Source: Acetobacterium woodii DSM 1030
Lineage (GTDB): Bacteria > Bacillota > Clostridia > Eubacteriales > Eubacteriaceae
Assembly: GCF_000247605.1 (NCBI RefSeq)
Contig: NC_016894.1
Span: 3,709,732 to 3,773,731 of the forward strand
Direction of reading: 5' to 3'
DNA: 64,000 bases
Shown here: positions 45,720-52,022 of the stretch, piece by piece
Numbering within the stretch: the first letter of the stretch is position 1
Layout: each line of letters starts with the position of its first letter
Position numbers and translations under genes: made by a program
Notes under the pieces: model-generated
The model's database searches: none
Seen by the model: the letters and a program-made list of their open reading frames with translations, nothing else
Told to the model about the DNA's origin: nothing

Positions 45720-45767
45720 AAAAAACGGAGAATAAATCCCATTAAGGATTTATTCTCCGCTTTTTTT
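45720..45767. terminator. terminator of the gcv operon
   Basis: Perfect 14-bp stem CGGAGAATAAATCC/GGATTTATTCTCCG with a 6-nt loop and T6 on the minus strand; a T7 on + makes it bidirectional. Confidence 0.92.
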
Positions 45768-45775
45768 AAATCTTT

Positions 45776-47242
45776 TTACGCTTCACTGTCGGGTATATAT
45801 TTAAAAATCGGCTGTCGCACTGCTTTTACCTCATCCAATCGTTTAACAATCGTATCATGAGGAGCTTCTTTTAACAGTTCGGGACTTGCCGCGGCTTCCT
45901 TCGCAATCTGTTGCATCGCCGCAATAAATTCATCCAGCGTTTCCTGACTTTCCGTTTCGGTTGGTTCGATCATCAGTGCCTCTTTAACAATTAAAGGGAA
46001 ATAGATAGTCGGCGGATGATAGCCAAAATCAATTAATCGTTTGGCAATATCCAGTGCCGAAACCCCAAAGCCGGTTTGTTTTTGGGCTGAAAAAACAACC
46101 TCATGCATACAAACTTTACCATAAGGCAAATCAAAACTATCCTGCAATTTAGCTCGGATATAATTGGCATTAAGCACTGCTGTTTCCGAAGCTTCCCGAA
46201 GTCCAACCGCTCCCAATGAGCAAATATATGCGAAGGCTTTAACGACGACCCCAAAATTTCCATAAAATGATTTTATTCTGCCAATCGAAAGGGGTCGGTC
46301 AACATCCAGAAAGTAGCCATTTTCATTTATTTCAACAACCGGTTTAGGCAAAAACGGAACCAATTCCTTTTTGACACCAACCGGACCTGAACCGGGACCA
46401 CCGCCACCATGCGGGGTACTAAAGGTTTTATGCAAATTCAGATGCACTACATCAAAACCCATGTCGCCCGGGCGAGTTTTTCCCATAATGGCATTCATGT
46501 TGGCACCGTCATAATAAAGCAGACCACCAGCTTGATGAATAATCTCGGAGATCTCGACAATCCCCGTTTCAAACAAACCTAAGGTACTGGGATTCGTCAG
46601 CATCAGTCCGGCGATCTCATCGCTCATCAGCGCTTTTAACGCTTCGATATCAACCCCGCCGTCTTCATTCGATTTCACTTCAACAACATCAAATCCTACC
46701 ACTGCGGCTGAAGCCGGATTGGTGCCATGGGACGAATCCGGCACAACAATTTTTGTCCGTTTCAGATCCCCGCGATTTTGATGATAAGCTTTAATAATCA
46801 TCAGTCCCGTCATTTCACCATGTGCACCGGCCGCTGGCTGTAATGACACCCGTGCCATTCCGGTAATTTCGGCCAGCATTTGGTCGGCCTTATATAAAAG
46901 TTCCAAACAACCTTGTGCGGTTTTTTCTGGCTGATAAGGATGCATTCTGGTAAAACCGCTATATTTGGAAACATCTTCATTAACCTTGGGATTATATTTC
47001 ATGGTGCAGGAACCTAAGGGATAAAAACCGGAATCCACGCCATGATTCATTTGCGATAAGGCCGTAAAATGACGGATCGTATCCACTTCACTAACTTCTG
47101 GTAATGCCGGAACGTGATCTCTTAAAAATGCTGCCGGAATGATGCTGGATACGGCAACTTCTGGCACATCGCAGGCCGGTAATAGATTTGCTTTTCGGCC
47201 CGGTACTGATTTCTCAAAAATTAATGCTTCTCGCTTAATCAC
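45776..47242 (-). CDS. gcvPB: glycine dehydrogenase (decarboxylating) subunit 2
   Basis: The catalytic half of the two-subunit P-protein, 488 residues as expected. The PLP lysine lies in [30 protein letters not shown] and [15 protein letters not shown] are family motifs. With GcvPA it decarboxylates glycine and loads the aminomethyl group onto lipoyl-GcvH. It begins at GTG and overlaps gcvPA by 8 bases. Last gene of the operon. Confidence 0.96.
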
Positions 47243-48581
47243 AATTGCTCACCGCCTTTTTTACTAAATTATCAATTTCCGCCCGGGAGCGTTTTTCAGT
47301 CACGGCCAGAAGCCAGCCATTAGGCAGCTCCGGATATAACTGCTCTATTGCATAACCGCCAATGATTCGCTCTGCAAGTAGTTGGTTGTTTAATGTTGCT
47401 GTATCGACGGCACTGGTTACGACAAATTCCTTGAAAAAAGGTGCCGTGAAAAGCGGTTTGAATTTGCCCGATTGGAGCAGTTGATCATGGAGGTAATGGG
47501 CCTTGTTGAGACAAAGTGTTGCTACTTCTTTTAATCCCTGTTTACCCAACATCGTCATGTAAATGCTGGCGGCCAAGGCATTTAACGCCTGATTTGAACA
47601 AATATTGGAGGTTGCCTTATCTCTGCGGATATGTTGTTCGCGCGTCTGCAACGTCAATACAAAAGCCCGCTTGCCCTGATGATCGGTTGTTTCGCCAACG
47701 ATCCGGCCCGGCAACTTTCGCATCAATTTTTTTGACGTTGCCATAAAACCAAGACCCGGTCCCCCAAAACTGATCGGGTTCCCGAGGCATTGACCATCGC
47801 CGACAACGATATCGGCATTTAATTCCCCCGGTGATTTTAATAACGCCAGGGAGATCGGATCGACACTGGCAATGAGCAACGCTTTTTGTTTGTGTGCCAG
47901 TTCTGCCGCCATTCCGACATCTTCGATAATCCCAAAAAAATTAGGATTCTGAACGATAACGGCTGCCGTTTGATCGGAACACTCAGCCGCCAGGCTGGAC
48001 ATGTCAAGGCTACCATTCGTATAACCGATTTCCTTCACGGTTATCCCTTTGAACTTTGCATAAGTTTTTATGACCTCCCGGCTCTCCGGATTAACAGTGT
48101 TAGCAACCAGCACTTCGTTTCTTTTGGTCTGCTGGCAAGCCATCGAGACTGCTTCAGCCAAAGCGGTGGCCCCGTCGTACATCGAAGCATTGGCTATATC
48201 CATACCGGTTAGTTCGCAAATCATTGACTGAAATTCAAACACGGCTTGAAGGGTCCCTTGGCTGATCTCCGGCTGGTATGGCGTATAGGCGGTGTAAAAT
48301 TCCTGTCTGGCAATCAGGTTTCCAACCGCACTGGGAATAAAATGATCATAAGCTCCAGCACCAAGAAAGCACGTGTAATCATCCAGGTTGGCATTTTTCC
48401 CCGCCAACTCACGCATATAAGTGGTTAGTTCCATTTCCGACAACGCCGGCGGCAGATCAAGGTCCCGACTTAAACGGACGGGTTCTGGAATATCGGCAAA
48501 AAGATCCGCGATCGAATCCATTCCCAACGCCGCAAGCATGTTTTTTTGTTGCTCTTCTGTATTCAAGATATAAGATGCCAT
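47235..48581 (-). CDS. gcvPA: glycine dehydrogenase (decarboxylating) subunit 1
   Basis: 448 residues, usual for Gcv[36 protein letters not shown] and [15 protein letters not shown] mark the family. It forms the heterotetramer with GcvPB. GGGAG precedes the ATG, 13 bases after gcvT-glyA. Confidence 0.96.
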
Positions 48582-48594
48582 CTGTTTTCTCCCT

Positions 48595-51237
48595 TTATAG
48601 TGTGGACTTTAACTTATCCAGTTGCGCCATAATGTCATCATCATTAAAACAATATTTCAGTTCGGTAAAATTGCTCCGCAGTTGTTTAACATCGTCGATA
48701 ACGTCTTTATTTCTTAAGATCACATCAGCCATCAATGCTGCAGTCTGTTCAAATTCCTTTGTCCCAAAACCAAAGCGGGTCATTTCCGCAACCCCGATAC
48801 GAATCGCGCCCGAAGCGGTAAAACCTTCTTCTTCCGGAGTTGCCTGATAGTTGATGATGATGTTATTACGTTCAAGTCGATTAGCGACATCCGGTCCGAT
48901 ACCATAACCAACCCGAACCACTACCTGATGCGTTTCAGTATAGGAAATAGCCGGATCACCAACGACATCGAGTCCTGCATCAGCTAAACATTTGGCAAAA
49001 TATTTGGCATTGTTGATAACATTTTTTTGGTATTCATCTTTAAAATAGTTCATTTCATAGGTTGCCATTAACAACCCCAACATCGTTCCTAAATGATGGT
49101 TGCTGACACTTCCTGGGAAAGCTCTGGTTTCAATGGTTTCCCAAAGGCCATATTTATAATCTTCGGGATCATAATTTCCGGCAATAATCCCACGCTGAGT
49201 CCCAAAAAAAGTTTTGTGCGTCGAACCCGTCACCAGTTCTGCTCCTTCTTCAAAAGGATTCTGGAAGTGATCGCCGACCAACCCCAATACATGGGCCATA
49301 TCATACATAATCACTGAATTCAATTTCTGCTCGTCAACAAATTTTTTGATTTCCCGAACCGGTTCTTTATGCAATACCATGCTCTTACCAAAAATAATCA
49401 GTTCCGGTTTATATTGAGCAATGACCTTTTTTGTTTCTTCAACATCAATTTTAAAGTGATTATCTTTTTCAACCGGGAAATTAACCACTGCCGTTTTTTC
49501 AGTCACCGGATCAATAGCAATATAATCGTGTAAAGCCCCCATCGGCTGGGCACTTAAATGTCCGCCTTTGATGATATGATTGTTTAAAACATAACCTAAC
49601 CGAGCCGGATCTTTTTTTCGGTTGACGCGGTTTTTATAGTCCATCAGAGCGCTGAATACTGCGGTATTGGCCATTTGACCGCTGATCACCCGGGTTTCTA
49701 CTTCGGCACAGTTTAAATATTTTTTCATTTCGGCCATTAACAGATGTTCAATTTCATCGATAAAAGCGGTCCCCTGATAATAAAAAACATCATAATCATA
49801 AAAGGATTTTGTTTTCTTGTGTTCCGCATACCGAAATGACGGGTCCATGATTGATAACAGTCGAACCGCTGGTGAATGTGACTGTTCCGAAGGAATCAGA
49901 TTAATGGTTTGATGCTGGCGCAAGATCGTGTTGTCATAACTTTTTTCCAACAGATTGATTGCTTTGGTTTTATAATCGGCGGCACTGTCAAACTCGCGTT
50001 CAACTTCAACGCCATAAATAATCGGTCTGGCAAATGGCGGTGCATCACTTTTCATATGATAAGGGGCAATCACTGCTTTTACCATCTTGCCGCGAATTTC
50101 CACTTCCACCGCATCGTTGAGTTCAACATCACCGTCGACCAACGCCAGAGCGATCGCCCGCATAGCCTTCTCGTCGGTAATTTTGCTGTCCAGTCCATAA
50201 CCTTCGGCTTTTAAATATGGCACCATCGTGGCACTGGTGATATAACCGACTTCTTTGCCATCTTTAAACACTTTGCAACCGGCTCGGGCAACACCTCTGC
50301 CGGTAATCGCCAACGATCGGACAATCCGCGGTAATTCGGACAGATCGGCTAACTCTCGTTCCATGATCTTTTTAAAACCTATATACTGTTTGGCCAAGGC
50401 TTCTCTGCCAATGTAATCCCCTTTGGCATCCGCAAAACTGACTGCAAATTTAGCCAGCGGGCAGGAAAAAATCGGAATTTCATGGCCGTCAATATCAAGC
50501 CCCAATTCATGGCCATACAATGGCAAACCGGCTTCCAGTCTTAAGGTATCGCGGGCGCCAAGGCCAATTGCCATCGCTCCCAGTTCCAATAGTTTTTCCC
50601 ATATTTCAGGGCCTTGGGCTGCTTTTGCGAATAATTCAAAGCCCAATGGTTCCCCGGTGTAACCGGTTCGTGCAATTAATAATTCTTGGCCTTTATAATC
50701 AAGGATTCCCAAAGCATTTTTAAGCGGTTCGGTGAGAAATTCATAACCGGTCAATTTTTTTAGGATGTTTTTTGATTCCGGTCCCTGCAATGAAATCATC
50801 GCGATTTCACTGGATTGATTACTAATTGTCGCGTCAAAAGCGGCGATTTCGGTATTCAAGTGTTGCCAATCTTTTTCAGCGTTAGCGGCATTTACCACCA
50901 GCAGATATTCGGTTTCCTTAAAGCGATACAAATAAGCATCATCCAATGCACCGCCGTTCTGGTTCTGAATCATCGTATATTGAGCCTGCAGCAAATCCAG
51001 GGCAAAAACATTATTAGTTAAAACATATTGCAGAAATGCTGTCGCTTCCGGGCCGGAAACGATGAATCTGGCCATATGGGAAACATCAAAAATTCCGGCT
51101 TTAATTCTGGTATTAATGTGTTCGTCAACAATTCCGTTTGGATATTGGATCGGCATTTCCCATCCGCCAAAATCCACCAGAGTTGCTCCCGCTTTGACAT
51201 GATTGTCATAAAATAGTGTGCGTTTTAAATTTTCCAA
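48595..51237 (-). CDS. gcvT-glyA: GcvT-GlyA fusion: aminomethyltransferase plus serine hydroxymethyltransferase
   Basis: One frame of about 880 residues. Residues 1-410 are a complete T-protein: FVDFGGWEMP-type start (TLVDFGGWEMPIQYPNGIVD), IFDVSHMARF, LLIARTGYTGEPLGFELF and GLGARDTLRLEAGLPLYGHEL; it is about 40 residues longer than usual. After a short linker, residues 425-880 are a PLP-dependent SHMT: INLIPSEQSHSPAV, YYQGTAFIDEIEHLL, ISGQMANTAVF, VIMYDMAHVLGL and GSTHKTFFGTQRG with the PLP Lys near 677. T-protein makes methylene-THF from the aminomethyl group, SHMT uses methylene-THF and glycine to make serine, so the fusion could channel one intermediate. TTG 51237 is 7 bases after AGGAG; another TTG lies 6 bases earlier. 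Confidence 0.95.
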   Translation of the reverse strand: MENLKRTLFYDNHVKAGATLVDFGGWEMPIQYPNGIVDEHINTRIKAGIFDVSHMARFIVSGPEATAFLQYVLTNNVFALDLLQAQYTMIQNQNGGALDDAYLYRFKETEYLLVVNAANAEKDWQHLNTEIAAFDATISNQSSEIAMISLQGPESKNILKKLTGYEFLTEPLKNALGILDYKGQELLIARTGYTGEPLGFELFAKAAQGPEIWEKLLELGAMAIGLGARDTLRLEAGLPLYGHELGLDIDGHEIPIFSCPLAKFAVSFADAKGDYIGREALAKQYIGFKKIMERELADLSELPRIVRSLAITGRGVARAGCKVFKDGKEVGYITSATMVPYLKAEGYGLDSKITDEKAMRAIALALVDGDVELNDAVEVEIRGKMVKAVIAPYHMKSDAPPFARPIIYGVEVEREFDSAADYKTKAINLLEKSYDNTILRQHQTINLIPSEQSHSPAVRLLSIMDPSFRYAEHKKTKSFYDYDVFYYQGTAFIDEIEHLLMAEMKKYLNCAEVETRVISGQMANTAVFSALMDYKNRVNRKKDPARLGYVLNNHIIKGGHLSAQPMGALHDYIAIDPVTEKTAVVNFPVEKDNHFKIDVEETKKVIAQYKPELIIFGKSMVLHKEPVREIKKFVDEQKLNSVIMYDMAHVLGLVGDHFQNPFEEGAELVTGSTHKTFFGTQRGIIAGNYDPEDYKYGLWETIETRAFPGSVSNHHLGTMLGLLMATYEMNYFKDEYQKNVINNAKYFAKCLADAGLDVVGDPAISYTETHQVVVRVGYGIGPDVANRLERNNIIINYQATPEEEGFTASGAIRIGVAEMTRFGFGTKEFEQTAALMADVILRNKDVIDDVKQLRSNFTELKYCFNDDDIMAQLDKLKSTL

Positions 51238-51279
51238 TTTCAATCTCCTGTCCGTTTTATTTATTGGGATGGTTACAAT

Positions 51280-51657
51280 TTAGTCATTACAAATTTTTTC
51301 ATAATCAGCAGCATTCAGCAGTTCATCCAATTCTTCCTGGTTGTCCATTTCAATACAGATCATCCAGTTTTCAAAAGCATCGGCATTCAACAACTCCGGT
51401 TCATCAACCAGGGCTTCATTCACTTTAATAACCGTCCCCGATACTGGCAAATAAACATCCGAAGCCGCTTTTACTGATTCAACGGTTCCAAAAGCTTCAT
51501 CCTTTTCAATTTTAGCATCTAGCTCCGGCAATTCCACATAAACAATATCTCCCAGTGAATGTTGGGCATAATCGGTGATCCCAATCGTTGCGACATTCCC
51601 GTCTACTTTTACCCACTCATGATCGTTCGAATATTTCAGACCTTCAATAATTTTCAT
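51280..51657 (-). CDS. gcvH: glycine cleavage system H protein
   Basis: 125 residues with the lipoyl-lysine loop FGTVESVKAASDVYLP (Lys 63). It carries the aminomethyl group from GcvPAB to GcvT. GGAGG precedes the ATG. First gene of the operon, behind the riboswitch terminator. No dihydrolipoyl dehydrogenase (L-protein) gene is in the window. Confidence 0.96.
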   Translation of the reverse strand: MKIIEGLKYSNDHEWVKVDGNVATIGITDYAQHSLGDIVYVELPELDAKIEKDEAFGTVESVKAASDVYLPVSGTVIKVNEALVDEPELLNADAFENWMICIEMDNQEELDELLNAADYEKICND

Positions 51658-51726: not shown

Positions 51727-51756
51727 AAAAAAGCAGAAAGCTAATGCCTTCTGCTC
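51727..51756 (-). terminator. riboswitch-controlled terminator
   Basis: AGCAGAAGGC and GCTTTCTGCT form a stem followed by T6 right after the second glycine aptamer and before gcvH; the expression platform. Confidence 0.85.
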
Positions 51757-51936
51757 TGTTATTAACCTGAGAGATTCTTTCCAATTTTGGAAGTTGCCCC
51801 TTCGGTGCTACGCTTTCCAGAGTTATGTCCAGTTACGGTCCATTTTACCTGAGATCATCACGGATATTATGGCTAAATATCTGTTTATTCCTTCGGCGCT
51901 GCATTCTCATGCAGACTCTCCCGTATCTTTCATCCA
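51757..51936 (-). ncRNA. tandem glycine riboswitch (two aptamers)
   Basis: On the minus strand the first aptamer (51832-51936) has GGGAGAGTC, GCGCCGAAGGAAT and ATCTCAGGTAAAATGGACCG. The second (51757-51831) has CTGGAAAGCG, AGCACCGAAGGGGC and AATCTCTCAGGTT. These are the glycine-aptamer conserved cores. Placement before gcvH with a downstream terminator fits an ON switch that allows transcription when glycine is high. Confidence 0.95.
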
Positions 51937-51993
51937 TTTGCATTTATTAAATTTTAATGCCCATTTCTTTTCCATACTTTTTAAGTTTATGTG

Positions 51994-52022
51994 AGTATAC
52001 ACTTTGCCAGACCGATTGTCAA
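51994..52022 (-). promoter_or_regulatory. gcv operon promoter
   Basis: Perfect TTGACA, 17-bp spacer, TATACT on the minus strand, about 60 bases upstream of the first aptamer. Confidence 0.88.

Follow-up and report, generated by a model that had tools for sequence, protein, structure and literature searches.

The glycine cleavage reaction and the serine hydroxymethyltransferase (SHMT) step are both reversible, and whether 5,10-methylene-tetrahydrofolate (methylene-THF) passes directly from the glycine cleavage system to SHMT is an old question. In Clostridium acidurici, as described in passages of one study, a glycine-serine-pyruvate route combines the glycine cleavage system, SHMT and serine dehydratase as separate enzymes; a two-aptamer glycine riboswitch precedes the gcv genes, and T-protein, SHMT and dehydratase are encoded by separate genes at separate loci (PMC3519856). 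We analyzed a 64,000-nucleotide stretch of the Acetobacterium woodii DSM 1030 genome (contig NC_016894.1; the window), in which one gene of a glycine cleavage (gcv) operon joins the T-protein GcvT to an SHMT. The system resembles that of C. acidurici in its set of activities and in the riboswitch ahead of the gcv genes, whereas A. woodii has T-protein and SHMT in one protein and the congeners of A. woodii have the dehydratase in the same gene run. A proposal on the A. woodii gcv genes is made in the accessible main text of PMC8407422 without mention of a fusion, the accessible main text of the A. woodii genome paper contains no occurrence of glycine (PMC3315566), and a search by title and abstract opening, with supplements outside its range, found no published report of a GcvT-SHMT fusion and no assay of either half of the protein. 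We propose, at a probability of about 0.68, that the fusion is a bifunctional T-protein/SHMT that would turn two glycines into serine.

The fusion frame runs without a stop from the TTG codon at 51237 to 48595 and encodes a complete GcvT followed by a complete SHMT domain. Direct reading of the sequence places AGGAG seven bases upstream of this TTG, which lies two codons inside the listed open reading frame (beginning at 51243), and relatives have an ATG at the homologous position (MGNLKRT or MGALKRT in L033, L034 and L038). With an alignment of the SHMT half alone as the query, a scan that took a single genome for each species yielded 407 candidate stretches, 390 of them confirmed as relatives, and the best 80 were kept. 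In every one of the 80 the SHMT half is joined to GcvT, and 78 have the frame at full length; the exceptions are a locus split by a frame change (L098) and one that begins at a contig end (L052). Because these loci come from separate records, a sequencing or assembly artefact is ruled out. The sequence-only reading of the window, which had claimed one uninterrupted frame and proposed a search for other fusions, is thus borne out on the first count and answered on the second.

For residue-level comparison, 94 proteins were reduced to 91 and then 83 by dropping the short frames L011, L052 and L098 and eight duplicates. Across the linker, the motifs YH and LIPSE could both be matched in 54 proteins, of which 52 have a spacing of 54 or 55 residues between them (29 of the 83 were not measurable, and two values of 266 are probably false pattern matches). 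Relative to L033 and L035, the fusion gene differs 2.7 to 4.9 times as often at third as at first codon positions in both halves; relative to the distant L012 the ratio is 1.7 to 2.2, with third positions near saturation. This pattern fits purifying selection on both halves of the fusion.

The GcvT half (residues about 4-390) scores 272.5 bits against the NCBIfam model TIGR00528, above the curated cut-off of 235.85. The structure of the fusion was predicted with a mean predicted local distance difference test (pLDDT) score of 79.0 and a predicted template modelling score (pTM) of 0.70 (model residue plus 3 gives protein numbering), and VIA-align of this half gave Z 45.7 to 1yx2 and 45.4 to 1wos; model residues 1-398 superimpose on Bacillus subtilis GcvT with Z 45.7 and a root mean square deviation (rmsd) of 1.9 over 355. 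D99 and D100 are at least 97% conserved among the 83 fusions, and alignment with the sequences of GcvT structures shows that the catalytic Asp is retained, D100 being aligned to D96 of Thermotoga maritima, which we take to be the catalytic position. Like the known GcvT proteins (1yx2, 1woo), the fusion has the full domain, a conserved DD with the catalytic Asp and a place in a gcv operon, at 37-39% identity to 1yx2; unlike them, it bears a C-terminal SHMT domain and extra residues, with GYTGEPLG in place of GYTGED. By sequence, this half belongs to the GcvT family and is predicted to transfer the aminomethyl group from GcvH to THF. The A. woodii genome has no GCV_T match apart from the fusion, which leaves no other candidate T-protein to serve the adjacent gcvH, gcvPA and gcvPB.

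Residues 436-835 of the SHMT half match PF00464 with 136.6 bits (gathering cut-off 27). Mapped onto Escherichia coli GlyA (L183), fourteen active-site residues (S35, Y55, E57, Y64, Y65, G125, H126, L127, S175, D200, H203, H228, K229 and R363) are the same in every one of the 82 fusions compared, L102 having been skipped because its motif was unmatched; we take these to include the lysine that carries pyridoxal 5'-phosphate (PLP), the catalytic Glu57 and contacts to pterin or folate. Canonical bacterial GlyA has the same fourteen residues but is only about 25-33% identical and forms a separate clade. The best Protein Data Bank (PDB) match by sequence is the SHMT of Methanocaldococcus jannaschii (173.7 bits, E 4.7e-50), with other enzymes reaching at best 101.7 bits and the L-threonine transaldolase 7k34 reaching 87.5. 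Model residues 419-877 superimpose on the M. jannaschii enzyme (4bhd) with Z 35.3 and an rmsd of 2.9 over 396 at 32% identity; other SHMTs give Z 31-33, the M. jannaschii chain 4uqv_F 33.7, and 7k34 also 33.7, which is 1.6 under 4bhd. The M. jannaschii SHMT (4bhd, 4uqv) shares with the fusion the motifs GSTHKTFFG and SNHH and the changes R235Q, T226S and G263N relative to E. coli GlyA; unlike the fusion, it is a stand-alone protein that keeps the pterin Asn and lacks three insertions found in the SHMT half. Conservation thus upholds the earlier claim that both catalytic parts are intact, with the fourteen SHMT residues invariant and the T-side Asp kept. The same reading had called GSTHKTFFGTQRG around the lysine unusual, which holds against bacterial GlyA and fails as a general statement, given that M. 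jannaschii SHMT has GSTHKTFFGPQGG.

Within the genus, seven other genomes have a full-length fusion of 881-901 residues, with 83-89% identity in the SHMT half, and two further genomes have it as pieces ended by contig edges; an order-level search added two genomes of another family at 60-62%. Carriers among the best 80 of the 390 relatives are Acetobacterium, Sporomusa, Clostridium thailandense, Oscillibacter and other Oscillospiraceae, rumen Clostridia, metagenome-assembled genomes (MAGs) of Mogibacterium and of gut Clostridia, and Riflebacteria. One carrier contig is labelled Calditrichales, the genome being placed within the window's own class, and in a Vescimonas fastidiosa plasmid record the fusion is annotated simply gcvT. 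In whole-genome samples with the query centres counted in, a fusion-type match occurs in 5 of the 391 class genomes (at 1e-60), in 9 of the 150 that represent the family of Oscillibacter valericigenes (G457), in 3 of 39 Riflebacteria (one ended by a contig edge) and 1 of 7 of the C. thailandense genus, the centre itself; in the phylum sample 4 of 398 genomes matched at 1e-38, only the window's own and G588 being of fusion type. This patchy spread rules out a broad lineage marker. That the fusion is real, conserved and patchily distributed among anaerobic bacteria, including the acetogen Acetobacterium, is confirmed by these sequence comparisons.

In phylogenetic trees, the 18 fused SHMT halves included cluster together (100/99) and separately from 16 canonical GlyA proteins (100/99), which rules out derivation of the SHMT half from the local glyA, and the 20 fused GcvT halves likewise cluster together (100/100), with nine plain GcvTs outside. 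The deep order of the SHMT tree (M. jannaschii, L175-L177) and its long branches L178 and L179 are unreliable. Pairwise distances in the two halves correlate (r = 0.907, 3403 pairs from 83 proteins, the pairs not being independent). Given one clade for each half and correlated distances, one old fusion event, retained since, is the simplest reading. Directly behind one fusion lies a plain 431-residue GcvT (L068:7533-8825) that groups within the clade of fused GcvTs; it is probably a copy from which the SHMT half has been lost.

The gene surroundings bear on direction. The A. woodii operon reads riboswitch, gcvH, fusion, gcvPA and gcvPB, with 42 bases between gcvH and the fusion and the further spacings given in Table 1. 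The first riboswitch aptamer (51826-51933) scores 54.7 bits against RF00504, above its gathering threshold of 32, and the two-aptamer model RF03166 gives 70.0 bits, under its gathering threshold of 110, with E 1.2e-14. At least one of gcvH, gcvPA and gcvPB lies in the same stretch as the fusion at 71 of 80 loci, and gcvPA homologues adjoin the fusion in relatives (gcvPA is annotated in the Vescimonas record). Of the 19 genomes of the genus, 10 have both the fusion and gcvPB (two of them with the fusion as pieces only), and the other 9 have neither. A glycine riboswitch was found in 16 of 24 sources tested (the window, L033, L034, L036, L038, L045, L048, where it lies 1.7 kb upstream of the fusion, L049, L051, L053, L054, L056, L058, L060, L063 and L070); it was not found in L041 and L043, both of which begin at gcvH. 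Behind gcvPB at 5 of 81 loci, all Acetobacterium or near (L033, L034, L036, L038 and L040), lie sdaB and sdaA for the L-serine dehydratase beta and alpha subunits, with family tested on one of each. Every one of the 9 other genomes of the genus that carry the fusion has this type of sdaA (72-100% identity), the genomes of these five loci being among them, and in 8 of the 9 it stands 750-800 bases from gcvPB on the same strand; among the 9 genus genomes without the fusion, 6 have another sdaA type and 3 have none. Genes for L-threonine 3-dehydrogenase (tdh) and glycine C-acetyltransferase (kbl), the enzymes that convert threonine to glycine, occur at a further set of 5 of 81 loci, behind the fusion in L054, L057, L060 and L075 and, in L077, with tdh behind gcvPB and a kbl piece at the stretch end; in L054, kbl is above both cut-offs, and tdh is above NF003808 and below TIGR00692 (448.3 vs 458.35). 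Dihydrolipoyl-dehydrogenase-like genes occur at 37 and lipoate ligase at 25 of 81 loci, again with one of each tested for family.

A glycine riboswitch together with serine dehydratase or tdh/kbl neighbours suggests glycine as the input, and these surroundings fit serine or pyruvate as the output. In the scheme that we propose, GcvP would decarboxylate one glycine and load the aminomethyl group on the lipoyl arm of GcvH, from which the GcvT half would accept it, releasing ammonia and forming methylene-THF; the tethered PLP-dependent SHMT half would use this and a second glycine to make serine, handing THF back to the T half. The net conversion would be of two glycines to serine, CO2, NH3 and 2[H], a module for glycine disposal switched on by glycine, with the serine then deaminated to pyruvate. 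The two activities, their direction and the transfer of methylene-THF within the protein are inferred. Conservation and gene context support the suggested role in glycine-serine exchange; the link that the sequence-only reading drew to a reductive glycine synthase route is its weaker part, the riboswitch, dehydratase and tdh/kbl fitting glycine disposal better.

Several observations weigh against this bifunctional, glycine-consuming scheme, some in the protein and others in its surroundings. The SHMT half scores 258.5 bits against the NCBIfam GlyA model (NF000586) with its cut-off of 335, so that by profile it is a member of the SHMT superfamily and not of the GlyA subfamily. All 82 fusions have Gln in place of Asn347, presumably a pterin contact, and also in place of S99 and R235; T226 is Ser in all 82 and G263 is Asn in 81 (the S99 position is Ala in 10 of 16 canonical GlyA proteins). 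Model confidence is below pLDDT 50 at model residues 464-485, 552-568, 704-710 and 801-804, the catalytic Glu included. The Asn347 change, the three insertions relative to canonical SHMT and the GlyA score, with a partial match to fluorothreonine transaldolase (TIGR04506; 147.8 bits, far under the cut-off of 650) and the equal Z of 7k34 and 4uqv_F, would suit a divergent PLP enzyme that makes no use of methylene-THF, such as an aldolase or transaldolase independent of THF, or a hydroxymethyltransferase acting on some other amino acid, with the tether to the T-protein serving regulation or assembly. We consider this quite unlikely, given that Glu57 is kept throughout the fusions, that folate-contact positions 64, 125 and 127 are retained with L121 replaced by Ile in 81 and Leu in 1, and that the top PDB sequence match is a pterin-using SHMT well ahead of the next enzyme. 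With the active-site residues including Glu57 kept and a pterin contact changed, a THF-using SHMT with an altered pterin pocket is expected. The fusions differ here from related stand-alone SHMT-like proteins of the same phylum (L175, L176 and L177, the last known from tree placement only): in L175 and L176 the catalytic Glu57 is Cys, and these are perhaps THF-independent enzymes. Scarcely credible is a fusion without functional consequence whose halves act as separate polypeptides after internal initiation or proteolysis; in-frame GTG, ATG and TTG codons are present at the junction, but there is no Shine-Dalgarno-like motif there, the linker length is fixed, and strict searches and the best 80 of 390 relatives gave no stand-alone fusion-type SHMT except contig-end pieces.

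As to the surroundings, A. woodii has no adjacent serine dehydratase, only a 49% homologue elsewhere in the genome that is of the sdaA type found in six of the nine fusion-free congeners, and no dehydratase remnants were found in the window. The glycine riboswitch was not above threshold in L035, L037, L039 and L042, stretches without gcv genes, and was not found in the L044 and L099 stretches. No gcv genes adjoin the fusion in Sporomusa malonica, S. ovata, C. thailandense and a Peptococcaceae MAG, and these four genomes have a separate plain GcvT (in S. ovata, a plain GcvT set about 20-25 kb away on the same contig); plain GcvT is also found in two A. wieringae-like genomes and one Riflebacteria genome. 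The stretch is likewise free of gcv genes at five gut loci (L072, L076, L093, L101 and L110), where GcvP is encoded either at a distance of 9 to 31 kb or on a different contig; an additional GCV_T match, weaker than the fusion, is present in three of the five genomes. The unlinked fusions of Sporomusa, C. thailandense and the Peptococcaceae MAG may be a second, serine-directed T-protein. A separate canonical glyA, whose presence the sequence-only reading had proposed to check, exists elsewhere in the A. woodii genome, and of the 33 fusion genomes tested from among the 80 loci, 28 have one; the five genomes without it are all MAGs and may be incomplete. The fusion as a replacement for glyA is thus unsupported, and the fused SHMT would be an added, not the sole, activity.

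The same enzyme could also be fed from serine, SHMT giving glycine and methylene-THF and the glycine cleavage system a second methylene-THF for the methyl branch of the Wood-Ljungdahl pathway. This direction has been proposed for the A. woodii gcv genes with serine transhydroxymethylase, and the accessible parts of the same study report higher gcv translation on fructose with serine-synthesis genes also up, and a 2.25-fold increase in growth rate on fructose when A. woodii gcvHTP was placed in Eubacterium limosum (PMC8407422). With the glycine riboswitch and the neighbouring serine dehydratase or tdh-kbl suggesting glycine input, we regard it as unlikely, though the reversibility of both steps would allow it. 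Even less probable, and in our view very unlikely, is operation in the reductive direction, with glycine made from CO2, ammonia and methylene-THF and passed on to serine and pyruvate. The genus is acetogenic, and the congeners' set of gcvHTP, SHMT and serine dehydratase is the gene set of the reductive glycine pathway; against this stand the glycine riboswitch ahead of the operon and the many carriers among Oscillospiraceae and rumen MAGs, whose metabolism was not examined.

Coordinates are collected in Table 1. The terminator-like hairpin between riboswitch and gcvH is possibly the expression platform of the riboswitch; the consensus scan gave 9 such sites in total, near the shuffled mean of 7.7. 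The promoter-like site is one of 12 against a shuffled mean of 15.3. The hairpin behind gcvPB could serve either strand; the scan reports it for the + strand alone, and the opposite A run comes from direct reading. Elsewhere, a weak tandem riboswitch match (26.5 bits, E 0.15) just before the unlinked C. thailandense fusion (L039:4482-4621) may be a decayed riboswitch. Upstream of the unlinked S. malonica fusion lie a guanidine-I riboswitch (L035:3282-3377) and an MttB-type methyltransferase gene (L035:18-956) with a sub-threshold match to a pyrrolysine insertion element, and an MttB-type methyltransferase and a B12-binding protein adjoin the unlinked fusion of the Peptococcaceae MAG (L042:5243-7450). 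In the two A. wieringae-like genomes (G035, G036), besides the fusion operon, a second gcvPB (59-60% identity) shares its contig with a plain GcvT in a frame of 372 residues. A 5-formyl-THF cyclo-ligase gene is found near the fusion in two gut bacteria, one of which also has FolC.

Table 1. Features of the A. woodii fusion operon (window coordinates) and folate genes near fusions of gut bacteria
Feature	Position	Strand	Remarks
gcvPB, glycine dehydrogenase subunit 2	45776..47242	-	8-base overlap with gcvPA
gcvPA, glycine dehydrogenase subunit 1	47235..48581	-	13 bases after fusion
gcvT-SHMT fusion gene	48595..51237	-	TTG start, 880 aa, stop at 48595
SHMT half	48598..49953	-	residues 429-880; divergent, archaeal-like; PLP lysine K675 at 49213-49215
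Linker	49954..50037	-	residues about 401-428
GcvT half	50038..51237	-	residues 1-400; catalytic Asp equivalent D100 at 50938-50940
gcvH, lipoyl carrier H-protein	51280..51657	-	TIGR00527, 153.4 bits; cut-off 115.85
Terminator-like hairpin, riboswitch/gcvH interval	51730..51757	-	12 pairs, then T run
Tandem glycine riboswitch	51752..51937	-	RF00504, RF03166
Promoter-like site	51994..52022	-	TTGACA-17-TATACT; 11/12 consensus match only
Palindromic hairpin behind gcvPB	45726..45759		14 pairs; A run before, T run after
Folate genes near gut fusions	L072:91-681, L072:2862-4139, L113:14032-14607		5-formyl-THF cyclo-ligase, FolC (L072)

Direct channelling of methylene-THF between the halves is plausible. 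A more specific version, which we put forward tentatively and think rather doubtful, is an intramolecular shuttle in which the fixed linker length, the invariant Gln at the Asn347 position and the three insertions would be adaptations for the hand-over, methylene-THF perhaps being swung between the halves on its polyglutamate tail. Earlier expression of A. woodii gcvHTP probably added the SHMT too, if the whole gcvT gene was cloned (PMC8407422). With a natural fusion, direct methylene-THF passage can be tested on a single purified protein, and engineering of glycine metabolism or of the reductive glycine pathway gains a ready-made part. If the shuttle is true, it would be, to our knowledge, the first natural direct channel from T-protein to SHMT and the core of a one-operon machine leading from glycine through serine to pyruvate.

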